Of a stretch of 64,000 nt of DNA, positions 21,205 through 41,174 are shown piece after piece; positions within the stretch are counted from its first letter, which is position 1, and the number at the start of each line of letters is the position of its first letter. This DNA is from Alcaligenes faecalis. Lineage in GTDB: Bacteria; Pseudomonadota; Gammaproteobacteria; Burkholderiales; Burkholderiaceae_B. The position numbers were made by a program, and so were the translations under genes. The notes under the pieces were generated by a model, which was given only the letters and a program-made list of their open reading frames with translations, searched no databases and was not told the DNA's origin. Where the stretch lies: positions 1,798,001-1,862,000 of the forward strand of contig NZ_CP031012.1 of the NCBI RefSeq assembly GCF_009497775.1. The letters run 5' to 3'.

Positions 21205-21257
21205 GAATGAAAACCTTGCAAGAAAAAGGGGAGATGGACGCAGGGTCCGGAGAGAAA

Positions 21258-21280
21258 GGGGATCGAGCTTGTCGATCCCC
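21258..21280 (-). terminator. Intercistronic hairpin, possible partial terminator
   Basis: GGGGATCGA (21258-21266) and TCGATCCCC (21272-21280) make a perfect 9-bp stem with a five-base loop. On the minus strand TTTCTC follows. It lies between the hemophilin-like gene and slam and could lower slam expression relative to the secreted protein, or protect the upstream mRNA end. Confidence 0.6.
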
Positions 21281-21319
21281 CTTTTCTTATGGCAACACTA
21301 GGGTGTTGTCAGAGGCGGA

Positions 21320-22201: not shown

Positions 22202-22265
22202 TACGAACTCCATTAAGTGAAGAAAAAGGGCGTTTTTACGAAAACGACCAAAAAAACTGATTAAC

Positions 22266-25200: not shown

Positions 25201-25433
25201 TTCTCGAATATATCGGTTTTACCGGCCTCATCGCGGGTTTCACGCACGACGGTAATGGTGTCCAGACGTGTGGCTCTGTCCGTGTCTTCCTGGCTCTCGT
25301 CCTGACGGGAGGAGGGTGGGGCGCTGCCCACGCTTTGGGCCTGTGTCTGCCCGGCCCAGGAGGCCAGAATCAAGGCATACACCAGCGGCTTGAGCGCGTG
25401 TTTTTTGTGTAGGGGTGAAAGGGTAGCGGACAT
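22266..25433 (-). CDS. TonB-dependent outer-membrane receptor, probably for haem/hemophore
   Basis: 1055 residues. After a signal peptide (about 1-33), a TonB box-like stretch (DTITVVRE) leads into the plug (about 60-190, with NIRGIQGEGRIPLTIDG and GIGGSVQIRT) and a large 22-strand barrel ending in RVGMTARF with terminal Phe. The length exceeds the usual 700-800 because of long extracellular loops (for example around residues 600-770), as in haemoglobin, transferrin or hemophilin receptors. First gene of the receptor-hemophilin-slam operon, preceded by a Fur-like box. It could instead serve the metallophore cluster next door, but gene order favours haem. Confidence 0.88.
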   Translation of the reverse strand: MSATLSPLHKKHALKPLVYALILASWAGQTQAQSVGSAPPSSRQDESQEDTDRATRLDTITVVRETRDEAGKTDIFEKDVSNVYAGKEEIELYKGSSVGDLFKGLNGVYAGDSRNSGALDPNIRGIQGEGRIPLTIDGTEQATSVWLGPAGVANRNYVDPNMISSILVEKGVSATSGASGIGGSVQIRTLQVEDIVKPGETFGIELKAETATNSTKPNERSFGVFGKDYRDIPGAVFDKGGTNGVILPGSVSPERMPKEGNGGKNFNFEDHSYRLAIATKQENFDLLAAYSYRSRGNYYSGKKGSEKYEYDSWQEDAKNDKRPGFSSPSISYIAKYFRPGEEVLNTSSELETTLLKGTLRLPHDQAIDMSYMRSNHTFGESVPWNVVWAVHALDGQGEKKILQNENPYSKVKQDTWNLNYSWNPEGNRFINLKAGAWITQSDSARHQNGDVIYGTQGDGWNGRDNAWDDYTDCHVLGRDLPMCANVPTTPPDKESNADGRFNIVPRALQITDHRRTGLNLSNEMTLHSTLDLSLQADFTREKLKQHDASENLTHLTELNWGVNHMGPRSGTRQQWNFGFNFDWRPIDWLQVNAGARYSDYWSYDDKLAEMRSQQHKDWAIRPALTGYNYQVQRLMTDQEANAYENKIIQSLTPAYEKYKEDWQTWYDFDPSFVDGPLLTPEEFMGDQLQRGKVNGYRYTDESVFVPSGQSHAGFTANNPFTNGEIDTSEKVTDAQGQKGTVDKYIASNANRKPVYQDESEIPNKWEEPKKQKDHAWVPHIGLTAFVTDDIRIYARYNEFVRFPSLFESSMAMAGSSKSSTGVAVSPEHAYNWEIGYAHNLSGYFPSLDYADIRINYFNNRIKDYIDRDWDFNVVQFAEKKMSGIELQARVDSGKYFANFGGTYRLKQQLCDHDYAQTFNPIPGASGGRNVPGCVDGGFPRTFARTSLQPQYSLNLDVGARLLEKKLLLGARAVYHSAAKNKDEGAFGAMGWAYNRANYWNPILVFDAYASYQVQKNLNVDVAISNLTNQYYLDPMARTSIPAPGRTVRVGMTARF

Positions 25434-25553: not shown

Positions 25554-25572
25554 ATTAATGAGAATAATTATC
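25554..25572. promoter_or_regulatory. Fur-like box upstream of the TonB receptor
   Basis: ATTAATGAGAATAATTATC agrees with the 19-bp Fur consensus at 15 positions by my count. It lies about 120 bp before the receptor start, in the 317-bp gap (25434-25750) between the receptor and the AraC gene, both on the minus strand. The rest of the gap holds a GC stem near 25675-25692 without a T-tract and no gene. Confidence 0.75.
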
Positions 25573-25750
25573 ACTTAGATTGATATGCAGAACGGAGCAA
25601 TTCCTATGCAGGACCGGAAATCCGCTGCAATTGCAGGGATTTGTCAAAGCAGGAGGGGAACTTTTCAGGGAGAGGGCCGCAGGGGGCGGCCCGAAAAGAA
25701 GGGTGGGCCTCTATGAGTCCAGAGGCCGAAAACAGTGGAAATACAAGGGT

Positions 25751-26728
25751 TTAGGCGCGCTTGTTGCCAAAAATGGATTTTGGCGAGCGGCCAAAGTAGC
25801 GCGTAAAGGCGACGGAAAAATTATTGGGGTATTTGTAGCCGACTTGCCAGGCGGCCTGGGCCACTTGTTGGCCGGACTCCAGCAAGGTATAGGCTTTGCG
25901 CATACGCAGTTCCAGTAGCAGGCCGATAGGCGTGTTGTCGTACAGATAGCGAAAACCTTCTTTAAGTTTGTGCTCGTTAATGCCCACCGTCGTCGCCAAA
26001 TACTCCACCGTGATTTGCTGGTCCAGTTGCGAGCTGAGCAAATCGCGTGCTCGCTCGACCCGCTGAATATCATCCACCGACAGCGGGGCGCTGTTGGGGG
26101 CGTCGGGCGGAGCCAGGCGGTTGAACTGCTCGGCCAGCAAGCTTAGTGCATGGATTTGCAGGTTCAGCCTGTGGTTATGAATGGGCTGCTCCGGGGTGCA
26201 CGGCTGCATATAGCGTGCCAGTGCCGCCGCATGGGCCATGGTGGCCTGGCTGCTGGCATGAAAGGACAGACGGTGCAGTCCCACGCAGTCCATCAACTGG
26301 GTTGCGCGTGCCGGGCCCACGTATTTGTTCAAGGCCGCCTCGCTGATGACCAGCCGTAATTGCGATACGGATTGGTCCTCTTGATAGTGGCGTTCCCCCC
26401 GCAGGGATCGGAAAGCCGTCACCGTGGTATGGCCTGCCTTGAACAGCAGGTCTGAACTCTCTCGACCCTGATAGGCCGACTGTCCTTGCAGACCCACGGT
26501 CACCACAATGACACGGCCCGCATGGGGGCCGTTGCTTTCTTCAACCAGCGATCGGCTGGGGTGATAGTGCAAACGGCCCAACAAAAACCCTTGTTCCAGT
26601 TCCACGCATTCGGAATAGCAGTGGCCCAGTTCTTCGGGTAGTTGCAGCCGGACTCGGCCATCGCTCAGAGCGCGGCATGACCTGGGTTCATCCGTGGTTA
26701 AGCGATAGCCAAATTTGCGCGTGCTCAT
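25751..26728 (-). CDS. AraC-family regulator (PchR-like)
   Basis: 325 residues. The second of two adjacent ATGs (26728) is five bases from AGGAG and is the better start. A long N-terminal sensor part (about 1-220) precedes two HTH units (about 225-322) with ATTVGINEHKLKEGFRYLYDNTP and GYKYPNNFSVAFTRYFGRSP. The NEHKLKEGFR pattern is typical of PchR/YbtA-type activators that sense a ferri-siderophore. It lies between the Fur-boxed receptor operon and the divergent methyltransferase-MFS genes with their own Fur-like box, so it may activate either or both. Confidence 0.87.
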   Translation of the reverse strand: MSTRKFGYRLTTDEPRSCRALSDGRVRLQLPEELGHCYSECVELEQGFLLGRLHYHPSRSLVEESNGPHAGRVIVVTVGLQGQSAYQGRESSDLLFKAGHTTVTAFRSLRGERHYQEDQSVSQLRLVISEAALNKYVGPARATQLMDCVGLHRLSFHASSQATMAHAAALARYMQPCTPEQPIHNHRLNLQIHALSLLAEQFNRLAPPDAPNSAPLSVDDIQRVERARDLLSSQLDQQITVEYLATTVGINEHKLKEGFRYLYDNTPIGLLLELRMRKAYTLLESGQQVAQAAWQVGYKYPNNFSVAFTRYFGRSPKSIFGNKRA

Positions 26729-26787
26729 CATTTCTCCTGCTAAAAGCGCCTCGCATATGAATTGCTCCGTTCAGCATAGATCTTAAT

Positions 26788-26806
26788 GCAAATAATTCTC
26801 ATTAAA
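26788..26806. promoter_or_regulatory. Fur-like box between the AraC and methyltransferase genes
   Basis: On the minus strand the 19-mer TTTAATGAGAATTATTTGC matches the Fur consensus at 13 positions by my count. It lies 60 bp before the AraC gene and 68 bp before the methyltransferase gene, so iron could control both directions. Confidence 0.6.
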
Positions 26807-26873: not shown

Positions 26874-27938
26874 GTGCTGGATCGATCGCTAGGAGAAGTC
26901 GTTTTGTCGGAGCAATTGCTGGAGTCGCATGCTCTGCAAGCCTGTTGGGACGCGCAATTGGCGGGTTTAAGTGCAGATGCCTTGAACCTGGCTTTGGGAT
27001 ATGGCGTGTTTGCGCATCTGGATAAGTTTATCGCTGCTGAGGAACTTGCGCTTGTGCTCAAGTGGGACGCCGACAACACCGCCTACCTGCTGGAGTTGCT
27101 GTGGAGTCTGGAGCTGCTGGAGTGTCAGTGGACCTGTCCGCGACGCTATCGCAGCCTGCCGCAAACGGCGCGTTATCTGAATCCGGGTTCGGCGCAATAT
27201 TGTGGCGATGCCTTGCTGTTTCGGCATGGCGTCTTGCGCCAGGTGGGCAATCAGCTCGATGAGCTGCTGCGCAATGGCAAATCGCCTCCAGCGGATCCGG
27301 CATTGATTCAGCAAGGCTGGGCAGCGGCGGCACGTTCGCAAATTGCCCAGGAACAAACGGCGGTGACGGCCGAGGTGGCCTGTGAGATTTTTGGGGCAGT
27401 GCCGGAGTTCTGGCAGGCGCAACGTCTGCTGGATTTGGGCGGTGGGCCAGGATTGGTAGCCATCGCCTTGGCGCAACAGCAGCAGGACTTGAATGCCGTG
27501 GTGTTCGAGTATGAAGCGGCGGCTGCCGTCGCCCAACAAAAAATTCTTGATGCCGGTCTGGAAGCGCGTGTCAGCACCTTGGCCGGTGATCTGCTGGTGG
27601 ACGATTTCGGGTCGGATTACGACCTGATCTGGTGCTCCTCCGTGCTGCATTTTGTGCCGGACATTCCCGCTTTGCTGGCCCGTCTGTATCGCGCGCTGCG
27701 CCCCGGTGGGGTGCTGGTGTGCTGTCACGCCGAAGTGCATACCGAGGTCAGCAAGGCCAGACGGATTTTGCATTACTACCTGCATATGCGCATGCAAGGC
27801 CGCCATGTGTTGCCGGAAGGGCAGTTGGCCCAGTTGCTGGAACAAGCCGGATTTGATGATGTTCAGCAGTTTGATGAGGTGCGCTTTCCGGTTGCGCCCG
27901 TCACTGCATTGATTGCGCGCAAGACGTGCAAAGGGTGA
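26874..27938 (+). CDS. SAM-dependent methyltransferase (O-methyltransferase family 2 type)
   Basis: 354 residues from a GTG at 26874, eight bases after GGAGG. An N-terminal helical dimerisation/winged-helix region (about 20-110) precedes a Rossmann domain with LLDLGGGPGLVAIALA (motif I), DLIWCSSVLHFVPD and RALRPGGVLVCC. This layout is that of plant-like and natural-product O-methyltransferases. Its stop overlaps the start of an MFS gene (TGATG). Methylation of a small secreted product, or S-methylation of a thiocarboxylate as a detoxification step, is plausible; the substrate is not known. Confidence 0.87.
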   Translation: MLDRSLGEVVLSEQLLESHALQACWDAQLAGLSADALNLALGYGVFAHLDKFIAAEELALVLKWDADNTAYLLELLWSLELLECQWTCPRRYRSLPQTARYLNPGSAQYCGDALLFRHGVLRQVGNQLDELLRNGKSPPADPALIQQGWAAAARSQIAQEQTAVTAEVACEIFGAVPEFWQAQRLLDLGGGPGLVAIALAQQQQDLNAVVFEYEAAAAVAQQKILDAGLEARVSTLAGDLLVDDFGSDYDLIWCSSVLHFVPDIPALLARLYRALRPGGVLVCCHAEVHTEVSKARRILHYYLHMRMQGRHVLPEGQLAQLLEQAGFDDVQQFDEVRFPVAPVTALIARKTCKG

Positions 27939-29179
27939 TGACAATGAAGACGTGGAAAGCGTGGGGGGCGCAGCTGCTGTTTGGCTGGATGAATCTGGTG
28001 CTGGCCGTCCCCAGTATTTACCTGATGCTGGGCATGCCCCTGGTGATGCGCCAGCATGGCTGGTCCGGCACCGAGATAGGCTTGTTCCAGCTGGCGGCCC
28101 TGCCCGCCATTTTCAAGCTGGTGCTGGCCATGCCGGTGCAGCGTGTCCGCCTGGGTGGCGGACATTTTGTGCATTGGCTGTGGTTGATGGCGGTGCTGTT
28201 GCTGGCTTTGTATGTGGGCATAGGCCGCGAGAATCTGATTGATCAGCGGACCCTGCTGTTTGCCCTGACGTTTGCCATCAGCATTGTGGCGACCTGGATG
28301 GACATTCCCTTGAATGCCTTGGCCGTGCAATACCTGCCGCGCGAGGAACAGTTACGTGCGGGCAGTATTCGTTCTGCCGCCTTGTTTCTGGGCGCGATTG
28401 TCGGGGCGGGAGTGATGGTGCTGGTGCAGGCCCGCTGGGGTTGGCAGGCACCGTTCGCCTTGATGGGCCTGGGGCTGGTGATTGGTTGTTTGCCTTTTGT
28501 CTTCTTGCGTTCGAAAGCCGGTTTGCAAGCGGCTGAAACCGAGCAGGCACCGCCCGGTTTTGTTGCCGATTGGGTCAGCTTTTTCGGGCAGGAAGGGGCC
28601 AAGCAATGGACCAGCTTGCTGCTGACCAGCTTCCCCTTTATTGGCGCTGTCTGGTTTTACCTGAAACCTTTGATGCTGGACCAGGGCATGCCCTTGGAAG
28701 AGGTGGCCTGGACGGTAGGGATTGCCGGTGGCATTACGGGTGCCGTGTTCAGCCTGATTGGTGGTCGCTTGGCCTCATTGCTGGGTGCCGCACGTGCCAT
28801 TCCTATTTATCTGCTGGCGGCCTTGCTGTCCCTGATTCTGCTGATGGTCTCGGTCTGGGCCAAGCTGGGCCCGGTGTGGCTGATCAGCAGTGCCATGTTG
28901 ATTGCAGCCAGCATGGGGGCGGTGTCAGCCTTGCTCTTTGGACTGACCATGTTCTTTACCCGTAGACAGCGCAATGCCTCGGACTACGGTTTGCAGTCGA
29001 CCATCTTCACCCTGGCACGTATGGCCGTTCCCATTGCCGCTGGCATCTTGCTGGACCGTTTCGGTCAGGTTGTCATGCTGGGCGTGCTCACCCTGGGCGT
29101 TCTGTTTGCCTTTGTATTGGCCTGGCGCGTGCGCCATAGCGTCGGTGCCAGCACCGAAGTTCTGCTGCGTAGCCAGTAA
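27938..29179 (+). CDS. MFS transporter paired with the methyltransferase
   Basis: 413 residues with twelve predicted spans and the MFS domain split around residue 200. The first ATG (27938) overlaps the methyltransferase stop; a second ATG two codons later is also possible. The protein lacks the drug-exporter motif C but resembles PucC/AmpG-like or siderophore MFS carriers in layout (WMDIPLNALAVQYLPRE). It may export or re-import the cluster product or its iron complex across the inner membrane. A stem-loop terminator follows at 29193-29223. Confidence 0.82.
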   Translation: MTMKTWKAWGAQLLFGWMNLVLAVPSIYLMLGMPLVMRQHGWSGTEIGLFQLAALPAIFKLVLAMPVQRVRLGGGHFVHWLWLMAVLLLALYVGIGRENLIDQRTLLFALTFAISIVATWMDIPLNALAVQYLPREEQLRAGSIRSAALFLGAIVGAGVMVLVQARWGWQAPFALMGLGLVIGCLPFVFLRSKAGLQAAETEQAPPGFVADWVSFFGQEGAKQWTSLLLTSFPFIGAVWFYLKPLMLDQGMPLEEVAWTVGIAGGITGAVFSLIGGRLASLLGAARAIPIYLLAALLSLILLMVSVWAKLGPVWLISSAMLIAASMGAVSALLFGLTMFFTRRQRNASDYGLQSTIFTLARMAVPIAAGILLDRFGQVVMLGVLTLGVLFAFVLAWRVRHSVGASTEVLLRSQ

Positions 29180-29192
29180 ATCAGGGCCTGAA

Positions 29193-29223
29193 AACGCCAG
29201 CGCACACAGCTTGCGTTGGCGTT
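29193..29223 (+). terminator. Terminator after the first MFS gene
   Basis: AACGCCA and TGGCGTT pair, extended inwards by GCGCA/TGCGT with one bulge, and CGTTTTTGC follows seven bases later. It marks the end of the methyltransferase-MFS transcript. The 116 bp beyond it carry the promoter for the moeZ operon. Confidence 0.6.
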
Positions 29224-29339
29224 CATCGTTTTTGCTCCGTCTCGCATAGAAATTAGAACCCAAAGGCTATTGTGTCATTTTCAGTCATATTTGAGAATAA
29301 GTCTTGTTCGTATTCATATGTATTTAACCAGGAGTCATT

Positions 29340-30512
29340 ATGACCTTGCCCCCCTTAGTTGAGCCCGGTGAGCCTTTAAGCCGCGAAGAGGTTAACCGTT
29401 ATAGCCGTCACCTCTTGATTCCCAATGTGGGCATGGAAGGTCAGCGCCGCATCAAAAATGCCAAAGTGCTGGTCATCGGGGCAGGCGGCCTGGGTTCGCC
29501 CACCTTGCTGTACTTGGCCGCAGCCGGGGTGGGCACACTGGGCATCATAGACTTCGACCGGGTGGATGAATCCAATTTGCAGCGCCAGATCATTCACACC
29601 GTAGACAGCATTGACGAGCTGAAAGTGGAAAGCGCCAAGCGTGCGATTCACAAGCTCAACCCCCACATCAAGGTAGAAACGTATACCGACAGGTTGGAAC
29701 CGGACATGGCGGTCGAGCTGTTTTCGCGCTACGACCTGATTCTGGATGGCACCGACAACTTTGCGACCCGCTATCTGGTCAATGACGCGTGCATGCTGGC
29801 CGATAAACCCTATGTCTGGGGTTCGATCTTCCGCTTTGAAGGCCAGGTCTCGGTGTTCTGGGAAAACGCACCCGGTGGCATAGGCTTGAACTACCGCGAC
29901 CTGTACCCCGAACCCCCACCACCCGAGCTGGCTCCTTCTTGCGCGCAGGGCGGTGTGTTTGGTGTCTTGTGCGCTTCGATTGCCTCCATCATGTCCACCG
30001 AAGCCATCAAGCTGATTACCGGCATTGGCGATCCTTTGATCGGCCGTCTGATCGCTTACGACGCACTGGATATGTGCTACCGCGAACTGCCCATCCGTCG
30101 CCTGCCCAATCGCAAGCCCGTGACCGAGCTGGGCGATTACCAAACCTTCTGCGGCCTGAATCCACCGGCTGATGCCATGGCCATCCCCGTGCCTGTCATG
30201 ACCGTGCTGGAGCTGAAAGAGCGGCTGGACCAAGAACAGGCCCCCGTCCTGGTGGACGTGCGCGATCCCAATGAATGGGAAATCGTGAACATTCCTGGCG
30301 CGATTCTGATGCCCAAATCTCCCACTGTCGCTGCCGAGATTCTGGCTGCCTTTGGTCCGAATGCGGATCTGGTGATCTCGTGCCGCTCCGGTGCACGTTC
30401 CAGGACCGTGTGCGAAGAGCTGATCAAGTTGAATGCCTCCAAGGTGCGCAATCTGGAAGGCGGTGTACTGGCTTGGGTGGAGCAGGTCGCTCCCGAATTG
30501 GCGTCTTACTAA
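29340..30512 (+). CDS. moeZ: MoeZ-type adenylyltransferase/sulfurtransferase
   Basis: 390 residues in two parts: an E1-like adenylating domain (about 15-275; nucleotide loop G47-A-G-G-L-G52, catalytic-type Cys201 in PSCAQGGVFG) and a C-terminal rhodanese domain (about 285-388, persulfide Cys348 in ISCRSGARS). It adenylates the C-terminal glycine of a ubiquitin-like carrier and replaces AMP with sulfur to give a thiocarboxylate. It lacks the zinc CxxC pairs of MoeB, as does actinobacterial MoeZ, and NYRDLYPEPPPP is shared with that group. First gene of an eight-gene run with JAMM and CysO-like genes. Confidence 0.92.
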   Translation: MTLPPLVEPGEPLSREEVNRYSRHLLIPNVGMEGQRRIKNAKVLVIGAGGLGSPTLLYLAAAGVGTLGIIDFDRVDESNLQRQIIHTVDSIDELKVESAKRAIHKLNPHIKVETYTDRLEPDMAVELFSRYDLILDGTDNFATRYLVNDACMLADKPYVWGSIFRFEGQVSVFWENAPGGIGLNYRDLYPEPPPPELAPSCAQGGVFGVLCASIASIMSTEAIKLITGIGDPLIGRLIAYDALDMCYRELPIRRLPNRKPVTELGDYQTFCGLNPPADAMAIPVPVMTVLELKERLDQEQAPVLVDVRDPNEWEIVNIPGAILMPKSPTVAAEILAAFGPNADLVISCRSGARSRTVCEELIKLNASKVRNLEGGVLAWVEQVAPELASY

Positions 30513-30531
30513 GTTCGGGAGGGAGCACATC

Positions 30532-30939
30532 ATGGCCTTGCAGATTCGTCGTTCTGCCCTGGAGCAAGTTCTGAATCATGCCAAGCAGGATCACCCCATC
30601 GAGGCATGCGGACTGATTGCCGCCCAGGAGGGCTCGCTGGTAGCCGAACGTGTGCTGCCCATGCAAAACCGGGCGGCCTCGGAGGTGTTTTATCAGTTCG
30701 ATTCGCGTGAGCAATTTCAGGTCTATCGCCGTCTGGATGAGGACGATCAGGAGTGCTGCGTGATCTACCACTCCCATACCGCCAGCCAGGCTTTTCCCAG
30801 CAAGGACGACATTGATTTTGCAGGCCATCCCGAACTGCATTACCTGATCGTGTCCACCTGGGACCAAGCCACCGTGCCGGTTCGATCCTTCCGGATTATC
30901 GACGGCGGTGTGACCGAAGAAACCATCGTGATTGTCTAG
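30532..30939 (+). CDS. JAMM/MPN metalloprotease (Mec-like)
   Basis: 135 residues from ATG 30532 after GGGAGG. The JAMM zinc site is complete: Glu24 in HPIEACG, His80-Ser-His82, Ser90 and Asp93 in HSHTASQAFPSKDD. It should cleave an isopeptide or peptide bond after the Gly-Gly end of a ubiquitin-like carrier; in Mycobacterium, Mec+ frees cysteine from CysO-cysteine, and in thioquinolobactin synthesis QbsD trims its carrier. The neighbouring carrier here already ends in Gly-Gly, so a product-releasing hydrolase is more likely than a maturation role. Confidence 0.9.
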   Translation: MALQIRRSALEQVLNHAKQDHPIEACGLIAAQEGSLVAERVLPMQNRAASEVFYQFDSREQFQVYRRLDEDDQECCVIYHSHTASQAFPSKDDIDFAGHPELHYLIVSTWDQATVPVRSFRIIDGGVTEETIVIV

Positions 30940-31013
30940 GGAACAGCGTTGCTTCCCTCAAGGGAGCGTGCGTCCCGGCTGTTGGAAACCACTATTTCAA
31001 AGGAGTTTTAAGC

Positions 31014-31286
31014 ATGTCCATTTCAGTCTCTATTCCGACCTTGCTGCGTCCACTGACGAACGGCGAGAAGAAAGTCCAGGCCCAGGGCGCTTCGGTAGGC
31101 GAAGTGATCGAGCATCTTGAAGGTCAGTTTCCCGGCATCAAGGCACGCCTGATGAGCGGCGAAGACCTGCATCGCTTTGTGAACATTTACGTGAACGAAG
31201 AGGACATCCGTTTCAGCGATGGCCTGAAAACCGCCACCCGCGCTGGCGACAGCCTGACCGTACTGCCTGCCGTAGCAGGGGGCTAA
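31014..31286 (+). CDS. CysO-like ubiquitin-fold sulfur carrier
   Basis: 90 residues with the MoaD/ThiS beta-grasp fold. It starts MSISVSIPTLLRP and ends LPAVAGG, both closely resembling actinobacterial CysO (also the internal LHRFVNIYVNEEDIRFS). The free C-terminal Gly-Gly is the site of adenylation by MoeZ and conversion to thiocarboxylate, and it donates sulfur in the cytosol. An AAAGGAG ribosome site precedes it. No cysM or cysteine synthase lies nearby; acid-activating genes follow instead, so sulfur is probably put on a small carboxylic acid. Confidence 0.92.
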   Translation: MSISVSIPTLLRPLTNGEKKVQAQGASVGEVIEHLEGQFPGIKARLMSGEDLHRFVNIYVNEEDIRFSDGLKTATRAGDSLTVLPAVAGG

Positions 31287-31369
31287 GACCGTCTGGTCTG
31301 GATTTTCATGGTGCAAGTGCTGGTTTCTGCAATCAGCACTTGGCGTGCGCATCACTCTGGTTTGGAACT

Positions 31370-33181
31370 ATGTCTGAATTACTACATGGCAGCGGATTAC
31401 GTTGGCAGATGGGCTCACAGCCCCCGTATTGGCCGGGCTTGCCCGCTGCCTTGAGCCGTCAGGCCCGATTGCTGGGTTTGTCCGAGCAAGCAGCAGGCCA
31501 GCAAGACGAAGCAGCATTCAGCCTGCATTCGCCTGATTTTGGAACGATTAGCACGCGTCTGGAAACCGAGGCAGGTGGCATGACGCAAGCCGCGATCAGC
31601 GAGCTGAGCATGCAGGCCGCCAGCGGTATCTTGTCCGTGCATGGACGCTCCAGTGGCCCGTCGGGCACGCTGGGTCTGGATTATCTGGCTGTACTCAGTT
31701 CAGCCATGAGTTTGCAGGCGACCTTGGCAGCCGCCTTGGGCAAGTTGCGTGGCGGGCGTTTCTCCACGGTGTCGGTTTCGCCCTTGGGTTGTGGCTTGCT
31801 CAGTATCGGTCAGTATCTGGCCGGGGCAACGGCGGCTCAGGACCCCGAGCAGTTATTGGCAGGCAGTTACGATCCCGGCTTGCGGCCACCCTTTATTTCG
31901 CAGGACGGTGTGGTCTTTGAACTGGAAACGTTGGACCCCCGGCCCTGGCGCGCCTTTTGGGAAGCGGTGGGTGTACCGGCCGATCTGGCTGGTCAGGCCT
32001 GGAAAGCGTTTCTGCTGCGCTATGCCAAGGCGGTGTGCCCCATGCCAGCGGCGTGTTTAAGCAGTCTGCAAGCCCTGAACTTTGCCCGTTTGCAGGAACT
32101 GGCCTTGCAGACCGGAATGGCCATCTTGCCGGTACGTACGCCGGCTCAACGCCAAAGCGATAGTGATTACGCAGCCTTGGCCGGTCTGTGGCAGCACCAG
32201 ACTCATGCTGCGCCCGGTTCATTGCGTGCTTTGCCGTCCAACGCCGATTTGCCCCTGCGCGGTTTGCGGGTGGTGGAATCCTGCCGCCGGATTCAAGGGC
32301 CTATTGCCGGTCATTTGCTGGCGCTGCTGGGGGCGGAGGTGATTCGTCTGGAACCGCCAGGTGGTGATCCCTTGCGTGCCATGCCGCCGTGCGTGGATGG
32401 CTGCTCGGTGCGCTTTGATGCGCTCAATCAATTCAAGACGGTGCAGGAAGTGGACATCAAATCGGCTCAAGGCCGCCAGGCCATTTACGAGCTGGTGAGC
32501 GAGTCCGATGTGTTCCTGCATAACTGGGCACCGGGCAAGGCGGCCGAGCTGCAACTGGATGCCCAGGATCTGCACGCGGTGCGCCCGGATCTGGTCTACG
32601 CCTATGCGGGCGGTTGGGGCCAGGAGCAAGTGGATGCACCGGGGACGGACTTCACGGTGCAAGCCTGGTCGGGCATTGCTCACACCATTTCTCAAACCTC
32701 GGATGCACGAGGTGGGTCTTTGTTTACGGTGCTGGATGTGCTGGGCGGGGTGATGGCCGCGCTGGGTATCAGTGCCGCCTTGCTGCGCCGGGGCCTGAGC
32801 GGGTCGGGCTTGCGGGTAGACAGCTCCTTGCTGGCCACGGCCGATCATCTGGCCCAGGCCGTTTCTCCCATCAGTAAAACCGGCGTGTCGGCGGTGTTCC
32901 AGACGGGCGAGGGCTTCATGGTCATCGACTGTCTGGATCAAACGCATCTGCATGCCCTGGCCGGGTGGCTGAATGTGTCGCCCGATGCCGTCTGGACGGT
33001 CTTGCCGGATCGTCTTCTGTCCCAGTCTGCCCTGAGCCTGGAAGCGCAACTGGATGTGCTGGGCATACCGGCCCGCCGTGTCCACAGCAATCTGGCGCAA
33101 CTGCGTGCTGATCCACGCCTGGCGTCCCATTTCCATGACAAGGGCTATTCGTCTGTTAATTCTCCCTGGAGGTTTTTATGA
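31370..33181 (+). CDS. Double-domain class III CoA-transferase (CaiB-like)
   Basis: 603 residues from ATG 31370; an earlier in-frame GTG or ATG lacks a ribosome site. The C-terminal half (about 275-600) is a CaiB/BaiF class III CoA-transferase: LRGLRVVESCRRIQGPIAGHLLALLGAEVIRLEPPGGD-type sequence, though the usual catalytic Asp region reads GTDFTVQAWSG. The N-terminal half (about 40-270) resembles the middle of a second CaiB unit (ELSMQAASGILSVHGRSSGPSGTLG). Half-size N-terminal copies suggest a dead or substrate-holding domain. It probably transfers CoA to or from an acid in the cluster. Coupled to the next gene by ATGA. Confidence 0.8.
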   Translation: MSELLHGSGLRWQMGSQPPYWPGLPAALSRQARLLGLSEQAAGQQDEAAFSLHSPDFGTISTRLETEAGGMTQAAISELSMQAASGILSVHGRSSGPSGTLGLDYLAVLSSAMSLQATLAAALGKLRGGRFSTVSVSPLGCGLLSIGQYLAGATAAQDPEQLLAGSYDPGLRPPFISQDGVVFELETLDPRPWRAFWEAVGVPADLAGQAWKAFLLRYAKAVCPMPAACLSSLQALNFARLQELALQTGMAILPVRTPAQRQSDSDYAALAGLWQHQTHAAPGSLRALPSNADLPLRGLRVVESCRRIQGPIAGHLLALLGAEVIRLEPPGGDPLRAMPPCVDGCSVRFDALNQFKTVQEVDIKSAQGRQAIYELVSESDVFLHNWAPGKAAELQLDAQDLHAVRPDLVYAYAGGWGQEQVDAPGTDFTVQAWSGIAHTISQTSDARGGSLFTVLDVLGGVMAALGISAALLRRGLSGSGLRVDSSLLATADHLAQAVSPISKTGVSAVFQTGEGFMVIDCLDQTHLHALAGWLNVSPDAVWTVLPDRLLSQSALSLEAQLDVLGIPARRVHSNLAQLRADPRLASHFHDKGYSSVNSPWRFL

Positions 33182-34839
33182 ATCACGCTGGCATCATCGA
33201 TCTGGTCCCTGCGTCATTGCGCCAACGCTGGATAGAGGACGGTACCTACCCGAACAAGCCGGTCTTTACGCTGTTCGCGGAAAAAGCCCAGGCTCATCCG
33301 GACAAGCTGGCGGTGCTCTCGCCCGAAGGCAATATCAGCTATAGCGCCTTGATGGACGCGGCTCTGCGTCTGGCAGGCAGCTTGCGTCGTGCAGGGATTA
33401 TGGCGGGCGACGTGGTGGCGTATCAGCTCAGCAACCATTGGGTGTGCTGCGCCATTGATCTGGCCGCCGCTGCTTTGGGGGCGATTGTCGCGCCTTTCCC
33501 ACCCGGACGGGGCAAGCTGGATATTCAGTCGCTGGTGCGTCGTTGCGATGCACGGGCGGTGATTGTGCCGCATGAATATGCAGGCATTGATTTGTGCGAA
33601 GTGATCGAGTCCTTGCGGCCTACGCTGTTGTCCTTGCGTGTCCTGATTGTGCAAGGCCCATCGCGTCCGGGCTGGATGACCTTGGATTCCCTGTTCGAGG
33701 GCGAGCCTTTGGCCTTGTCAGAATTGCCGGTGGTGTCCCCCAATTCGCCCGTGCGTTTGCTGGTGTCCTCGGGCACCGAGTCCGAGCCCAAGCTGGTGGC
33801 TTATTCGCATAATGCGTTGGTGGGTGGGCGTGGCCGATTCCTGCAACGCATTTCTCCCAATGATGTGGAGTTCCGGGGCATGTATCTGGTGCCGCTGGGC
33901 TCTTCGTTTGGCTCTACAGCTACCTTTGGCGTGCTGTGCTGGTTGGGTGGTTCTTTGGTGGTCTTGCCCAAGTTTGATGTGCCTAGTGCGATTGCCGCCA
34001 TCAATGCCTTTAAACCCAGCTTCATTCTGGGCGTGCCCACCATGTTCCAGCGTATTGCGGCAGCACCTGAACTGGAGAAGGCCGATAAAGCCAGCTTGCG
34101 CGGCTTGATTGTGGGCGGTTCAGTCATTGACGAAGCCACGGTACGCCGTTGCGTGGAAGCGTTTGATTGCGGCTTCATCAGTCTGTACGGCTCGGCCGAT
34201 GGGGTGAACTGCCACAACACGCTGGATGATCCTATCGAAGTGGTCTTGAGCAGTGTGGGGACTCCCAATCCGCAAGTGTGCGAGATTCGCCTGATTGACG
34301 ATGAGGGTGCCGAAGTGCCACAAGGTGAAGTGGGTGAAATCACCGCACGTGGTCCCTTGAGCCCCATGCAATATGTGAACGCCCCGGAACTGGATGCCCA
34401 GTATCGGGACGAGCAGGGTTGGGTGAAAACGGGCGATCTGGGTTACATCAATGCCCAAGGGCAATTGGTGCTGGCGGGTCGCAAGAAAGACATCATTATT
34501 CGTGGTGGTGCGAACATCAGCCCGGTGCAAATTGAAGGCCTGGTCATGGCTCACCCGGATGTGGTTACCGTGGCGTGCGTGCCGGTCCCCGATGCGGATC
34601 TGGGTCAGCGTATTTGCTTGTGCGTGACGGTGCGTGAAGGCGTGCCGCGTTTCTCCCTGAAAGAGATCACCGACTTCTTGCGTGAGCAGGGTCTGGAAGT
34701 GAACAAGTTGCCCGAGTATCTGCGCTTTTACCGCAGCTTGCCGCTGACACCTGCGGGCAAGATCGACAAGCGCGCCTTGACTGCCGATGCGGCTGCATTG
34801 GGTTCCGGGGCCAAGACCGCAGCGGGGATAGCAGCATGA
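33178..34839 (+). CDS. Acyl-AMP ligase / acyl-CoA synthetase of the ANL superfamily
   Basis: 553 residues. Core motifs are in order: A3 LLVSSGTESEPKLVAYSHN, A5 YGSADG, A7 KTGDLG, A8 GRKKDIIIRGG, and A10 Lys in PLTPAGKIDK. It activates a carboxylic acid as acyl-AMP and may hand it to CoA or directly to the thiocarboxylate of the sulfur carrier. PDTC and thioquinolobactin clusters have a similar ligase beside their MoeZ/JAMM/carrier genes. Four-base overlaps with the genes on both sides show tight coupling. Specificity residues do not tell me the substrate. Confidence 0.9.
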   Translation: MNHAGIIDLVPASLRQRWIEDGTYPNKPVFTLFAEKAQAHPDKLAVLSPEGNISYSALMDAALRLAGSLRRAGIMAGDVVAYQLSNHWVCCAIDLAAAALGAIVAPFPPGRGKLDIQSLVRRCDARAVIVPHEYAGIDLCEVIESLRPTLLSLRVLIVQGPSRPGWMTLDSLFEGEPLALSELPVVSPNSPVRLLVSSGTESEPKLVAYSHNALVGGRGRFLQRISPNDVEFRGMYLVPLGSSFGSTATFGVLCWLGGSLVVLPKFDVPSAIAAINAFKPSFILGVPTMFQRIAAAPELEKADKASLRGLIVGGSVIDEATVRRCVEAFDCGFISLYGSADGVNCHNTLDDPIEVVLSSVGTPNPQVCEIRLIDDEGAEVPQGEVGEITARGPLSPMQYVNAPELDAQYRDEQGWVKTGDLGYINAQGQLVLAGRKKDIIIRGGANISPVQIEGLVMAHPDVVTVACVPVPDADLGQRICLCVTVREGVPRFSLKEITDFLREQGLEVNKLPEYLRFYRSLPLTPAGKIDKRALTADAAALGSGAKTAAGIAA

Positions 34840-36029
34840 GCCACCTTGCCATTTCCAGCGCGGCCTTGAGCCGCAAGCTGCGGCAGTTTGTGGATACCGA
34901 GATCATCCCCAACGAGGGCATTCTGGCCCAGGGAGATAATCTGGCCCGCGAGCTGACTCTGGATCTGACACGTCGGGCTCAACAGGCGGGTTTGTTCGGC
35001 AGTTTCTACCCCATGCATCGCGGCGGTCGGATCGCCAGTTTGGTCGAATACTTGCCTGTGGCTGAACAAGAAGGGCGCTCCGAATATGGCCCCGGCATTT
35101 TCGGGGCAGATGCCACGCTGGATGCGTATATGTTGAGCCATCACGGCTCGGCCAGCGTCAAACAGCGCTTTCTGACGCCCTTGCTCAAGGGCGATGCGGT
35201 GTCCAGCTACGCCATGTCCGAGCCGGACAGCATTGGTTCGATTCCGGCCACCATGCAATGTCAGGCTCGTCTGAAAGACGGGCAATGGCATGTGAATGGC
35301 CGCAAGTGGTTTATTTGCCGGGCGCAACTGGCCAGCTTCGCGACTGTGGTGGCGCGCAGCGCGGACGGTCCCGTGAATGAGTCCTTGTCCATGGTGATCG
35401 TGCCCACGGATGCGGCGGGCTTTAAAGTCGTGCGTCCCTTGCCTTTGCTGGGACGTTATCAGGGGCAGAACGAGCTGCTGTTCAACAATGTGACCGTGCC
35501 GGAGGACTATGTACTGGGCAGCGCCGGGCAGGGCATTGCCTTGATGCAAAAGCGCCTGGCCCTGGGCCGTATTCTGCGATCCGTGCAATGGCTGGGCTTG
35601 GCGCAACGCAGCTTTGAAATCATGTGCGAGCGCATTCATTCAGAGCGCGGAGAACTGGCCCGTCTGGCAGACAAGCAACTGGTTCGGGCGCGGGTCTATC
35701 AGGTGTATCGCGCCATTACCTCGGCTCGGTGCTTGCTGCGTGAAGCCGCCGTCAAGTTCGATGCGGGCTTGCCCAATTCCGTGGAGGTGAATGTGGCCAA
35801 GCTGGCGGCGTCGGATGCGGTCAGCGAGGCGGCAGATTCCGCTATCCAGATCATGGGGGCGGAAGGGCTGGCGGATTGGAGTCCCTTGTCTGGCATCTAC
35901 CGGGCAGCACGTACCACGCATATTCTGGATGGGGCGGACGATGCCTTGATCAGCACGGTCGGCAAGCACTTGCTGCAAGCCCACTACGCCATTCAGGATA
36001 CGGCAGACATGAACAAGGCAGTCGCATGA
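34836..36029 (+). CDS. Acyl-CoA dehydrogenase-family flavoenzyme
   Basis: 397 residues with the three ACAD domains: helical N-terminus, beta domain with YAMSEPDSIGS (FAD/substrate loop) and QWHVNGRKWFI, and helical C-terminus. The residue usually Glu in the IYEGT motif is Asp365 in HILDGADDALI; an Asp there also occurs in ACAD groups with an ADGPDEVH motif. It probably desaturates or oxidises the activated acid. Four-base overlaps join it to the ligase before and the MFS gene after. No electron-transfer flavoprotein gene is present. Confidence 0.88.
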   Translation: MSHLAISSAALSRKLRQFVDTEIIPNEGILAQGDNLARELTLDLTRRAQQAGLFGSFYPMHRGGRIASLVEYLPVAEQEGRSEYGPGIFGADATLDAYMLSHHGSASVKQRFLTPLLKGDAVSSYAMSEPDSIGSIPATMQCQARLKDGQWHVNGRKWFICRAQLASFATVVARSADGPVNESLSMVIVPTDAAGFKVVRPLPLLGRYQGQNELLFNNVTVPEDYVLGSAGQGIALMQKRLALGRILRSVQWLGLAQRSFEIMCERIHSERGELARLADKQLVRARVYQVYRAITSARCLLREAAVKFDAGLPNSVEVNVAKLAASDAVSEAADSAIQIMGAEGLADWSPLSGIYRAARTTHILDGADDALISTVGKHLLQAHYAIQDTADMNKAVA

Positions 36030-37216
36030 TGCTATCGACACGGGCAAGTCGTTCCCCCTGGGTGCTGGCCAGTTTGATGACTCTGGCGATGGGCATGCCC
36101 ATGATGGTGTTTTATGCCATCGGCGTCCTGGGCCCGCAAATCATTCAGGATCTGGGTATCTCGCGCGAGCAACTGGGGTGGTTGACCACCAGCACCTTTG
36201 GTCTGGCTGCCTTGCTCTCGCCGTGGGCGGGGGCCTTGGTGCAGCGCATGGGCAATCGGCAAGGCTTGTTTTTGCTGTTCTTGCTGGTAGCCATGTCCTT
36301 TAGTTTGATCGCGGTGTTGCCGGGTTTCTGGGGTGTGCTGACGGCTCTGCTCTTGTGCGGCTTGGCGCAGTCCTTGGCGAACCCGGTGACCAATCAGGCC
36401 ATTGCCCAGTTGGTACCGGCAGAGCGTAAGGCCGGGTTGGTCGGTATCAAGCAGTCCGGCGTGCAGGCTTCGGCCTTGCTGGCCGGTCTGGTCCTGCCCA
36501 CCCTGGCCTACAAGCTGGGGTGGCGGGGAGCGTTTGTGGTATGGGTGCCCGCCATGCTGTGCCTGTCCTACTTTGCCTTGCAGCTTTTGCCGGCCAGAGC
36601 CAGCACCGCAGCTGGCAGCATGTCCTGGCGCTTGCCCTGGCCCAGCCAACAGCTTTGGCTGTTGATGGCCATTCAGCTATGCGCGGGTCTGGTGCTGTCG
36701 TCCTTCATCACTTTTCTGGGCGTTTTTGCGCAGCAACTGGGCGTGTCGCCGTACTGGGTAGGGATGCTGATCAGTGGCTTTGGGGTGATGGGGATTGTGT
36801 CCCGAGTGCTCTTGACGCCTATCGCTGCCCGCTTTGGTGATGAAACCTTGTTGCTGGGCATCCTGTTTGTCATCCCGATTGTGGCCTTGTTGTTGATGAT
36901 GATGGCCGCGCCGGACAGGCTCTGGCCCTTGGGAGCCGGGGTGCTGGCCATCGGCCTGACCCTGGTTGCGACCAATGCAATTGCCATGAGCATGTTGCTG
37001 CGAGATGCCCGCTTTGGCGCACCGGCTCGTACGGCAGGGCTGTTGTCCGTAGGGTTCTTTGGCGGCTTTGCCTTTGGCCCGCCACTGTTTGGTGTGCTGC
37101 TGCGTTCGCCCGAAGGCTTTGCCGCTGCCTGGCCTTTCCTGATGGGCATTCTGGTGTGCGCCAGCTTGTTGTGCCTGATTCTGTACCAGGTTCGTCGTAT
37201 GGTGAAAGGGGAATGA
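36026..37216 (+). CDS. MFS transporter of the sulfur-carrier cluster
   Basis: 396 residues, starting at the first of two ATGs (36026) that overlap the ACAD stop. Twelve predicted spans; the N-terminal half has LGISREQLGWLTTSTFGLAALLSPWAGALVQRMGNR, a clear MFS motif A region. It fits CynX/OppP-like or metabolite:H+ carriers and is the obvious exporter or importer of the cluster product. It ends five bases before the GH88-like gene. Confidence 0.85.
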   Translation: MMLSTRASRSPWVLASLMTLAMGMPMMVFYAIGVLGPQIIQDLGISREQLGWLTTSTFGLAALLSPWAGALVQRMGNRQGLFLLFLLVAMSFSLIAVLPGFWGVLTALLLCGLAQSLANPVTNQAIAQLVPAERKAGLVGIKQSGVQASALLAGLVLPTLAYKLGWRGAFVVWVPAMLCLSYFALQLLPARASTAAGSMSWRLPWPSQQLWLLMAIQLCAGLVLSSFITFLGVFAQQLGVSPYWVGMLISGFGVMGIVSRVLLTPIAARFGDETLLLGILFVIPIVALLLMMMAAPDRLWPLGAGVLAIGLTLVATNAIAMSMLLRDARFGAPARTAGLLSVGFFGGFAFGPPLFGVLLRSPEGFAAAWPFLMGILVCASLLCLILYQVRRMVKGE

Positions 37217-37220
37217 TGGG

Positions 37221-38261
37221 ATGTCTGTAGATGTATTGGGATCAGCCAGCATAGAGTCCATTTTTGCGAATATGGACCAGGTTGCCGAGCAATGTGGGGA
37301 GCAGTTTCCCTTGTTCAGACAGTCCTCGTCCGAGCAATGGACCTTGTCGCGACGTGGCTCCTGGTTGGGAGGGTTCTGGGCTGGGTTGTGGTGGCGACGC
37401 GCTTTGATCAGCGGTCAGGAGCAGGATAAGGAGCAGGCGCTGAACTGGAGCCAGAAGCTGCAAGTCTGGCTGGAAGAGCCCAGCATCAATCGCAGCTTTG
37501 TGTTCTGGTATGGCTCCGGTCTGGGCAGCATCTGGCATGGGGATAGGGAGGCTGAAGCCAATGTCGATCAGGCGGCACAAGCTCTGCTGAACAGCTTTGA
37601 TGCCTCCAGCGGCTTCTGGCCCTTGGGTTCCGGAATGGGGGGCGGGGAAGCGGGCAATCACATTTTGAATGTGGATGCTCTGGCTCCCACGCTCTTGGTG
37701 CTGGATGCGCAGGGCGGGCCGGTGGCGCGTCAGTTTGGGCAATGGCATGTGGATGCCTGCCTGCGTTACTTGCAAAAGCGTAGCGGAGCCTGGCGGGATA
37801 CGGTCTTGCTACGCGGGAACGATGTACTGGCCGAGCAGGGCGCTGAAACCTGGCAACGAGGGCAGGCCTGGGCCATGTTGGGCATGGCAACCGCAACGCG
37901 CTTGTATGACAGAAAGTCTTATGCTCAAGCAGCCCTGAATGCCTGCCGATATTGGCACGAGCGTTGGGGGAAGTTTGCGCATGGTTTTTTGACGCAGGAT
38001 TCCCCACTGAGCCCGGTAGACCGTTCCGCCTGGGCGATTGCTTCTTTGGCCATGTATGAGCTGTGGCAAATTCTGCCGGAACAGCAATGGCTGCACGAGC
38101 AATCGCGCTTGTATCTGGATGCTTTGCTGACTCCCGAGTTAAGTGAAACAGGGCGTTTTGTGGGACATCTTTATAAAGTTGCGCCGGGGCAGTCTGAATT
38201 GGTGGAATCGGCCTGCGCCAGTTTTTTTTTGCTGGAGGCCTTGCTGGCGCATTCGGCTTGA
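37221..38261 (+). CDS. GH88/GH105-like (alpha/alpha)6-barrel protein
   Basis: 346 residues, no signal peptide. RRGSWLGGFWAGLWWRRA, ILNVDALAPTLLVLDA, TWQRGQAWAMLGMATATRLY and DRSAWAIASLAMYELWQI are the internal repeats of the unsaturated-glucuronyl-hydrolase barrel. It lacks obvious equivalents of one of the two catalytic Asp residues, although Asp152 in NVDALAP may be one. Such a sugar-lyase-product hydrolase is unexpected in a thiocarboxylate cluster; the fold may have been recruited for another hydration. It is last in the run from moeZ, five bases after the MFS gene. Confidence 0.72.
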   Translation: MSVDVLGSASIESIFANMDQVAEQCGEQFPLFRQSSSEQWTLSRRGSWLGGFWAGLWWRRALISGQEQDKEQALNWSQKLQVWLEEPSINRSFVFWYGSGLGSIWHGDREAEANVDQAAQALLNSFDASSGFWPLGSGMGGGEAGNHILNVDALAPTLLVLDAQGGPVARQFGQWHVDACLRYLQKRSGAWRDTVLLRGNDVLAEQGAETWQRGQAWAMLGMATATRLYDRKSYAQAALNACRYWHERWGKFAHGFLTQDSPLSPVDRSAWAIASLAMYELWQILPEQQWLHEQSRLYLDALLTPELSETGRFVGHLYKVAPGQSELVESACASFFLLEALLAHSA

Positions 38262-40625: not shown

Positions 40626-41174
40626 ATGTCTGGCAACAACGCTGACACGGGCAAGAGCAAAAAGATTCTGATCATTGCTGGCCCGAACGGGGCAGGCAAG
40701 ACGACATTTGCGCGCTCTTTTCTGCCGGCCGAGGCGGAAGTGCTGCGTTTTATCAATGCAGATCTGATTGCAGCGGGCCTGTCGCCTTTTGCGCCAGAAA
40801 GCGCGGCTATCAAAGCCGGTCGTTTGATGCTGGATGAGTTGAAAGAAGCGGTTCGCCTGGGCGAGAGCTTCGCGCTGGAAACGACCTTGTCTGGCCAGGG
40901 CTATGTGCGCCATATCGAAAAATGGCAGGCGCAGGGTTATCGAGTCAGCTTGTATTTTTTAAGTTTGCCCGACGCGGATATGGCGATCGCGCGGGTGGCA
41001 GAACGGGTACGTCAGGGTGGTCATAACATCCCCGAACCCGTCATTCGTCGCCGCTTTGCGGCTGGCATGAAGAACTTCCTGCATCATTATCGGGATACCG
41101 TGGATGATTGGGTTTTGTACGATAACGCAGGCAGTGTGCCAGTCCTGTTGGAGTGGGGAGAGAAAGATGAATAA
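40626..41174 (+). CDS. Zeta toxin-family P-loop kinase
   Basis: 182 residues. Walker A GPNGAGKTT (about 19-27), INADLIAAGLSPFAPE, and SFALETTLSGQGY are typical of the zeta/PezT-like and COG4185 ATPases. True zeta toxins phosphorylate UDP-N-acetylglucosamine and stop cell-wall synthesis. Shorter proteins of this type are chromosomal and of uncertain toxicity. It overlaps the next small gene by eight bases. No epsilon-type antitoxin is seen, so the small downstream protein is the best partner candidate. Confidence 0.85.
   Translation: MSGNNADTGKSKKILIIAGPNGAGKTTFARSFLPAEAEVLRFINADLIAAGLSPFAPESAAIKAGRLMLDELKEAVRLGESFALETTLSGQGYVRHIEKWQAQGYRVSLYFLSLPDADMAIARVAERVRQGGHNIPEPVIRRRFAAGMKNFLHHYRDTVDDWVLYDNAGSVPVLLEWGEKDE

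Follow-up and report, generated by a model that had tools for sequence, protein, structure and literature searches.

Thiocarboxylate metallophores are typified by PDTC, the product of the pdt locus of Pseudomonas stutzeri KC, P. putida and F113, for which the gene order pdtCKPELMFGHIJON has been reported in F113. This class of gene neighbourhoods was published by 2006, and row 4a of the corresponding table combines five genes encoding E1-rhodanese, JAB, ThiS-like, CaiB-like and AMP ligase proteins (Iyer et al., 2006, PMC1779556, in the part drawn on here). A related thioacid cassette consists of a ligase and a two-domain CoA-transferase with a conserved Asp, as described in the relevant part of PMC6006322 for PtmA3/PtmU4, QbsL/QbsK and YtkG/YtkF. 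On the side of protein-mediated uptake, the HphA-HphR-HsmA and HrpC-HrpA-HrpB hemophore loci, as far as presented in the parts of PMC8560813 and PMC8406197 considered, place the genes for a soluble hemophilin-family cargo, a SLAM secretin and a TonB receptor next to each other. The T11SS cargos described in the portions of PMC12282271 and PMC8406197 drawn on relate to heme, transferrin, lactoferrin, factor H, cobalt-receptor proteins and adhesins, and none of them is linked, in those portions, to a small chelator made by the cell itself. The main text of PMC12282271 never uses the word 'siderophore', and PMC8406197 has it once, in the references.

In this study, we propose that the window (the whole stretch analysed, i.e., 64,000 nt of Alcaligenes faecalis, GCF_009497775.1, NZ_CP031012.1, positions 1,798,001 to 1,862,000 of the forward strand) carries a pdt-type metallophore locus. 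Judged from its genes, an arm for making the compound is probably combined with an arm for recovering it, in which a secreted metallophore-binding protein acts instead of or besides a PdtK-type receptor. Gene content, order, families and conservation, the alternation of the uptake genes with a PdtK-type receptor and the existence of uptake-only loci are the parts that the sequences support. All genes named in a preliminary description of this DNA were recovered, including the methyltransferase-MFS pair that precedes the biosynthetic run. The first gene of this pair encodes an O/S-methyltransferase in a PdtP-like position (26874-27938, + strand; PF13489, PF00891, PF08100) and the second a proposed MFS importer in a PdtE-like position (27926-29179, +; PF07690), the two overlapping by 13 bases given a GTG start at 27926. 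This MFS protein scores below the cut-off with both the RhtX/FptX siderophore transporter family (37 bits) and the AmpG family (54.8 bits), and falls in a trio-linked clade with a support of 100/100. A terminator-like hairpin of 12 pairs followed by a T-rich tail (29193-29223, +) divides the pair, as an uptake unit, from the biosynthetic run; terminator-like sites overall number 17, close to the shuffle mean of 14.7.

The biosynthetic run comprises eight genes on the + strand, encoding a MoeZ-like adenylyl/sulfurtransferase (PdtF; 29340-30512; PF00899, PF00581), a JAMM metallopeptidase (PdtG; 30532-30939; PF14464), a ThiS/MoaD-like sulfur carrier with a bare C-terminal Gly-Gly, as claimed before (PdtH; 31014-31286; PF02597), a two-domain type III CoA-transferase of the PdtI/QbsK/PtmU4 type as proposed thioacid synthase (31370-33181; PF02515 in two stretches), an acid-CoA/AMP ligase of the PdtJ/PtmA3 type (33178-34839; PF00501, PF13193), an acyl-CoA dehydrogenase-like oxidase (ACAD; 34836-36029; PF00441, PF02770, PF02771), a second MFS transporter and proposed exporter (36026-37216; PF07690) and a GH88-fold protein (37221-38261). 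The MoeZ-like protein reaches 577 bits with NF005902, below the cut-off of 647. For the JAMM gene, the open reading frame start at 30433 was judged too far upstream. The run had been described as having mostly four-base overlaps, which holds for three of the seven junctions (CoA-transferase/ligase/ACAD/MFS), while gaps of 4, 19, 74 and 83 bases occur at the remaining four.

The five-gene core of MoeZ, JAMM, ThiS-like carrier, CoA-transferase and ligase belongs to the pdt-typified thiocarboxylate class: exactly the five genes of row 4a are all present, and the Nitrosomonas and Hahella relatives of that class were recovered again. Core, AraC, methyltransferase and MFS genes also follow one another as in the F113 gene order. 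Conservation was assessed in 65 non-actinobacterial (proteobacterial) loci, drawn from the best 80 of 316 CoA-transferase relatives. All eight genes are found together in 49 of these loci, in the same order and strand in 47, and thus the run is not a chance arrangement; the scattering among relatives that would have spoken against the earlier proposal is not seen. ACAD, the second MFS and the GH88-like gene are matched in 61, 60 and 52 of the 65 loci, respectively. These three conserved pdt-type parts can now be named; they are unlisted in the parts of PMC6006322 and PMC1779556 drawn on here. Compared with the cassette of PMC6006322, as given in that part, the window adds its own carrier, MoeZ, JAMM, ACAD, MFS and GH88-like genes; compared with the row in PMC1779556, in the part used, it adds the ACAD, MFS and GH88-like genes and a T11SS trio. 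No quinaldate or platensimycin genes were seen at the window locus. In a class-wide draw, the CoA-transferase was found in one of 369 genomes, the window's own, and a plasmid search returned just two matches, both distant and partial.

Synthesis of cysteine or a cofactor is another role in which a bare Gly-Gly tail and a JAMM protein resemble a known pair, CysO and Mec, and the MoeZ-carrier-JAMM set could then stand here by coincidence. We regard this as highly improbable and rejected CysO-type cysteine synthesis, since no cysteine synthase-like gene is among the neighbours searched, the genome holds two ThiS-family matches besides the carrier (three in total), and MoeZ, JAMM and carrier co-occur with the cassette in 63 of the 65 loci. 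Carrier caps as a general reason for the JAMM protein were likewise unsupported: 46 of 63 carriers have a bare Gly-Gly end, and L058 is the only one of those 63 loci in which no JAMM motif was found. Some of the 17 other carrier tails are short extensions and some apparent frame artefacts. The motif itself, HxH...PSxxD, was read in the window protein and its Alcaligenes relatives.

The two-domain CoA-transferase has an invariant Asp427 within a GTDF motif of its C-terminal domain and adjoins the ligase, the arrangement of the thioacid cassette; from this motif, Asp427 is presumably the equivalent of the catalytic Asp430 of PtmU4. The ligase is 74-82% identical to those of the pdt-type Pseudomonas, Thauera and Stutzerimonas loci compared, and identity is lower for both the CoA-transferase (51-57%) and ACAD (58-66%) of the same loci. 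Two ligase stretches, SSFGSTATFG and YGSADGVNCHNT, are unchanged across them. A salicylate-AMP ligase is the one solved structure listed for this protein at E 1e-80. A ligase of the salicylate/DHB type was rejected, the His-Asn pair of salicylate-AMP ligase being Ser-Ser here. The GH88 assignment made earlier is borne out by the family profile, which matches the unsaturated glucuronyl hydrolase 1vd5 at E 9.5e-34, and Pfam gave no match for the window protein itself. Unsaturated glucuronyl hydrolases use the catalytic aspartates Asp88 and Asp149. In the family alignment, the equivalent of Asp149 is invariant in 41 sequences and Asp88 is not retained, so that the pair expected of a glucuronyl hydrolase is incomplete.

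Thioacid chemistry is known from the literature for relatives of these proteins, whereas we infer the substrate and the directions of both MFS transporters. MoeZ would charge the carrier to a thiocarboxylate and the ligase would activate a carboxylic acid, after which ACAD may oxidise the acyl intermediate, possibly aromatising a ring. The CoA-transferase would then replace CoA by sulfur, yielding a thiocarboxylic acid for export by the second MFS. The product is likely a thiocarboxylate metallophore, PDTC or an analogue, with dipicolinate, as in PDTC, as the most likely substrate. The K, P, E, L, M, O and N identities used here follow from gene order, not from KC or F113 sequences. By family match, the genes at the pdtL and pdtM positions of other loci are relatives of PigD and PigE, a finding relevant to the assembly of the compound skeleton. 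In Alcaligenes, pdtL had no match in any of 10 genomes with a query from an L/M-bearing locus and no positive-control genome, and pdtM was matched by its aminotransferase half only. Without these two genes the product may differ from PDTC, and the prospect of another thiocarboxylate falls only slightly short of even: none of the loci with L and M is from the Nitrosomonas group, whose loci carry other added genes, but the conserved ligase stretches are identical to those of L/M-bearing loci.

A pdt/qbs-like thiocarboxylate pathway linked to metal uptake, as originally suggested, is supported, and the grounds then given for a new variant are not. The CoA-transferase fusion is of the known PtmU4/QbsK/pdt OrfI type (PMC6006322, part considered), and a CaiB-like PdtI already appears in the part used of Iyer et al. 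(2006; PMC1779556). In Pseudomonas pdt-type loci, ACAD, MFS and the GH88-like gene are likewise members of this conserved run. Dipicolinate genes, the lack of which had also been cited, seem to be missing from locus L033 as well, where no gene was seen between the MFS and GH88-like genes besides L, M and the run. The real departures, which the preliminary description did not cover or mention, are the T11SS trio and the missing pdtL and pdtM; what makes the locus unusual is its uptake side.

Both arms may be under the control of Fur and of an AraC-family regulator in a PdtC-like position (25751-26731, - strand; PF12833), whose relatives at related loci share 46-64% identity. The two Fur-like boxes reported beside this gene were confirmed, one on each side: at 25554-25578 in the TonB/AraC gap (15/19 bases at 25554, overlapping 13/19 at 25560) and at 26782-26806 in the AraC/methyltransferase gap (13/19 at 26782/26788). 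In nine regions homologous to the latter gap, the best Fur-like site matches 12-14/19 bases. The window has 12 sites of at least 13/19, four of them at the locus; ten simulated 64-kb sequences had 0-5 such sites each and a single site of at least 14/19 in total.

The trio (19717-25433, all on the - strand) lies left of AraC and occupies the place of the PdtK-type receptor in other loci. It encodes a T11SS (SLAM, DUF560) outer-membrane secretin (19717-21204; PF04575, 131 bits, cut-off 22), a soluble cargo of the hemophilin family (21320-22213, translation taken from 22198; NF041636, 108.4 bits, cut-off 80), which we propose as a metallophore-binding protein, and a TonB-dependent receptor (22266-25433; PF00593/PF07715). 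Profiles thus identify both elements of a T11SS locus, a DUF560 secretin and a cargo with a C-terminal 8-strand barrel domain, and the cargo family profile matches the hemophilins 7re4 (E 3.9e-21) and 6om5 (E 2.7e-14). In Stutzerimonas, Thauera and Pseudomonas, SLAM relatives with 52-61% identity adjoin loci of the thioacid, uptake-only or trio-only kind. Different from the Hph and Hrp loci, in the parts of PMC8560813 and PMC8406197 considered, the window trio is joined to a small-molecule metallophore locus and the heme-ligand His is not kept.

Ordinary Slam-dependent heme uptake, with no tie to the biosynthetic cluster beyond Fur control and location, is an explanation we consider unlikely. 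Both the hemophilin family of the cargo and the receptor's nearest family, TIGR01785 heme/hemoglobin receptors (215.6 bits, below the cut-off of 316.85), speak for it. Against it, thio-linked TonB receptors and SLAM proteins form their own clades (100/100 each), the SLAM clade apart from six paralogs, and hemR and hutX are already present in the A. faecalis Mc250 genome according to its paper. Furthermore, the ten thio-clade cargos have no Cys and no invariant His, and seven have a single His, in contrast to the bis-His heme binding by HphA H43/H106. Hemophilin-type His ligation is not recognizable from sequence, as the segment taken to hold H106 has no fixed His in a comparison confined to the His-bearing segment of hemophilin chains, with the H106 placement assumed. 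The missing His does not set the thio-linked clade apart, because no fixed His exists in the paralogous cargos from outside thioacid loci either. Such paralogous trios (33-44% identity) occur without thioacid clusters, which again agrees with heme uptake, yet the linkage of trio and cluster is kept in several genera, and all 18 genomes compared have a trio or a PdtK-type receptor.

In these 18 genomes with the core, which are no random sample, 10 have the trio only, four a PdtK-type receptor only, four both and none neither, the trio being scored mostly by its cargo and the PdtK search in large genomes covering 56 of up to 124 first-look candidates. The complete trio is found at the cluster in S. 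kirkiae, two Thauera, four Pseudomonas and the window itself. Ventosimonas has part of it, TonB together with a cargo gene that is interrupted by an internal stop. The position next to AraC that the trio takes in sister loci is filled by a PdtK-type gene in two Pseudomonas loci. The window genome and five further core-bearing Alcaligenes have no PdtK-type match at E 1e-60; in G005, the seventh such genome, a match lies at a distance of about 1 Mb. Cargo is present in all seven Alcaligenes genomes with the CoA-transferase and in none of the three without. Among 328 Pseudomonas genomes, seven have the cargo (at least 55% identity), 13 the CoA-transferase and four both (hypergeometric P 4.9e-5; 7e-4 without the centre genome); three of the seven lack the CoA-transferase, and trio and cluster are unlinked in two genomes with both. 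No cargo match was obtained in Advenella, nor, outside the putida-like group, in the Pseudomonas genomes searched except two.

A secreted protein system known mainly from heme scavenging, located beside this cluster, suggests a new way to recover metallophores. SLAM would secrete the hemophilin-like cargo, which would capture the metal complex extracellularly and pass it on to the TonB receptor. Import across the inner membrane would fall to the first MFS, and the methyltransferase perhaps S-methylates the thioacid, freeing the metal. Cargo binding and metal release are inferred parts of this scheme. In its full form, we tentatively picture a two-part metallophore, with not quite an even chance of being right, in which a secreted small thiocarboxylate chelator is joined by a T11SS-secreted, hemophilin-derived protein that binds the chelator's metal complex without metal-ligating His or Cys and serves a dedicated TonB receptor; the module could replace PdtK, and some Pseudomonas would retain nothing but this module, with which they take up chelator made by others. 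If true, a producer-side protein carrying a siderophore complex changes the view of how secreted siderophores are guarded from competitors. Uptake-only loci, which share one chromosomal position, provide a naturally occurring collection of putative takers: in three Pseudomonas genomes (L161-L163), trio, AraC, methyltransferase and MFS importer, with no core detected, are flanked by the two chromosomal genes that also enclose the full loci.

Pfam and NCBIfam searches bear out the gene list of the preliminary description, namely a methyltransferase-MFS pair (26874-27938 and 27926-29179) followed by MoeZ, JAMM, a ThiS-like carrier, a two-domain CoA-transferase, a ligase, an ACAD, a second MFS and a GH88-like protein (29340-38261, + strand). 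They add three genes on the minus strand to the left of AraC (19717-25433), encoding a TonB receptor (1055 aa), a protein of 297 aa that carries the barrel of Slam-dependent proteins at its C-terminus (the cargo) and a SLAM/T11SS secretin, together called the trio here. Since a terminator-like hairpin lies 5' of the eight-gene biosynthetic run (MoeZ through GH88-like), this run and the methyltransferase-MFS pair are probably transcribed separately. The genome comprises 4,159,911 bases in one contig. For A. faecalis Mc250, the siderophore-related genes given in the relevant part of its description are enterobactin-type genes and a hemin receptor (PMC7643998). As 11 of the 18 antiSMASH gene sets noted there are unnamed putatives, the thioacid cluster may be one of them.

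Scanning genome contigs with a CoA-transferase alignment gave 316 relatives, the best 80 of which were kept (65 non-actinobacterial and 15 actinobacterial loci); counts of loci below refer to these best 80 of 316. MoeZ, JAMM, carrier, CoA-transferase and ligase co-occur in 63 of the 65 non-actinobacterial loci, and all eight genes in 49, with the same order and strand in 47. In five of the 16 incomplete loci (L023, L047, L055, L076, L080) the contig is short or an edge truncates the locus, and the GH88-like gene, matched in 52/65 overall, is what most of the others lack. Within the stretch examined, MoeZ, JAMM and the carrier were matched in none of the 15 actinobacterial loci, while ACAD, MFS and the GH88-like gene are present in eight. 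Ligase, CoA-transferase, ACAD, MFS and GH88-like genes are clustered, with no local match to carrier, MoeZ or JAMM, in actinobacterial L083, L084, L085, L088, L092, L093, L096 and L099. The cluster class is already known, since the five-gene core is class 4a of Iyer et al., 2006 (PMC1779556), with PdtF, G, H, I and J named, and thioacid formation by PtmA3 and PtmU4, relatives of QbsL/QbsK and pdt OrfJ/OrfI, was shown by Dong et al., 2018 (PMC6006322). Iyer et al. also term the JAMM link to siderophore operons mysterious; among the carrier genes of 63 loci (e.g., L042, L045, L056, L057, L073, L082), Gly-Gly is bare in 46, yet JAMM is retained, and a few carriers have short Cys-ending tails. Nitrosomonas-group loci (L048, L051 and others) combine the core with an alginate-export-family protein, an alpha/beta hydrolase and an amidohydrolase, and some with a TonB plug-domain protein; this add-on set differs (Pfam was run on L048 only).

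The trio also occurs at thioacid loci of Stutzerimonas kirkiae, two Thauera and four Pseudomonas (L120, L144, L145, L146). It adjoins pdtM, not AraC, in Thauera Sel9 and lies 3 kb from AraC in T. linaloolentis. In Ventosimonas (L119) the TonB gene is open, the cargo gene (L119:7243-7602) has an internal stop and SLAM had no match within the stretch fetched. The cargo is present in 7/7 Alcaligenes genomes with the full CoA-transferase (TonB and SLAM were checked in part of the seven) and in 0/3 without it. Eight other genomes of the family carry cargo homologs at 39-44% identity (one partial, 54%) and no CoA-transferase match. Among 328 Pseudomonas genomes, a sample centred on a genome holding both genes, nine have a cargo match (E 1e-20), seven of these reaching at least 55% identity; the CoA-transferase is present in 13, four of which also have a close cargo.

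Three Pseudomonas genomes have a close cargo, and the CoA-transferase had no match in them at E 1e-100. In each (L161, L162, L163), the trio, AraC, methyltransferase and MFS importer are flanked by a solute-binding protein gene on one side and rnr on the other. That solute-binding protein gene also lies 3' of the GH88-like gene in the full loci L025, L027, L029 and L032, and in the three of these four where the contig extends to it, rnr comes after SLAM; in two more genomes the trio stands alone between both genes, with the cluster elsewhere. Thus, a single chromosomal site occurs in three states: full, uptake-only and trio-only. The persistence of the trio with AraC, methyltransferase and importer where biosynthesis is absent is the strongest sign that trio and importer share one job. 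Retention of the methyltransferase there suggests that the imported compound is its substrate. PDTC esters and thioesters are reported from F113 cultures (PMC7415375). S-methylation could serve to release the metal. L161-L163 are possible xenosiderophore takers.

A different receptor occupies some loci. PdtK and PdtE are reportedly the PDTC transporters of Pseudomonas; our PdtK-type reference is Advenella L028:19266-21302, so named for its position in L174, where AraC and methyltransferase flank it as in the F113 order. In 18 genomes with CoA-transferase, with trio status mostly judged from the cargo, ten have only the trio, four only the PdtK-type gene, four both and none neither. In Pseudomonas L175 and L170 the PdtK-type gene adjoins AraC in opposite orientation, at the trio position of sister loci (in L170 the contig ends there). 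Trio-adjacent importers fall in one clade of 16 (100/100), which includes one PdtK-type locus (L031). Ventosimonas has an in-clade importer beside the trio-type TonB gene and an out-of-clade one, a long branch of unsure exact placement, beside the PdtK-type gene.

The window cargo is a member of the hemophilin family. In HphA, heme is bound through H43 and H106 (PMC8560813). The ten cargos compared from the thio-linked clade share no invariant His; seven have a single His of varying position, and none has Cys. The four paralogs compared have no fixed His either, so its absence is not special to this clade. A coordinatively saturated complex could do without any metal ligand contributed by the protein. 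Seven residues, Tyr123, Glu139 and Glu148 among them (292-aa translation numbering), are fixed throughout the clade but missing from the four paralogs.

Regarding the acid substrate, the ligase is the most conserved of five compared genes, followed by MoeZ. The window's ligase shares 74-82% identity with the six pdt-type rows of Pseudomonas and the three of Thauera/Stutzerimonas, and 59-66% with the six of the Nitrosomonas group; the corresponding CoA-transferase values are 51-57 and 43-44%. Both SSFGSTATFG and YGSADGVNCHNT recur unchanged in the window and the pdt-type rows compared. This argues for a single acid in the window and pdt-type rows, which would be dipicolinate if pdt is taken as guide. 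In the GH88-like family, Asp149 of UGL has a conserved equivalent and the RGQAW motif is mostly retained, whereas Asp88 is not kept. Because UGL hydrates a ring double bond adjoining a carboxylate, our guess is that the GH88-like protein could perform hydration or dehydration on a carboxylated ring.

Pseudomonas pdt-type loci have two extra genes between MFS and MoeZ, which, judged from the order given for F113 (pdtCKPELMFGHIJON), should be pdtL and pdtM. The Advenella gene at the pdtL position matches PigD with 595.7 bits, under the cut-off of 950, and that at the pdtM position matches PigE with 1335.6 bits, over the cut-off of 850. PigD, a ThDP enzyme, and PigE are proteins of prodigiosin (pyrrole) synthesis. 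Both types are present in 23/65 non-actinobacterial loci (L028:2759-7809 and 22 others). In ten Alcaligenes genomes, pdtL had no match (10/10) and pdtM matched by its aminotransferase half only. Among the matches listed, with most subscription papers outside scope, no published title links PigD/PigE with pdt, Alcaligenes with a thiocarboxyl cluster, or hemophilin/SLAM/T11SS with thiocarboxyl, metallophore or sulfur-carrier.

Elsewhere in the window, at 56152-57254, a Fur-like site (14 of 19) precedes a ZIP metal transporter gene (PF02535), and overlapping Fur-like sites (13, 14 and 14 of 19) lie at 61868-61901 near ORFs without Pfam match. At 40626-41355, a Zeta-toxin/AAA-type kinase gene and the short ORF after it are possibly a toxin-antitoxin-like pair.
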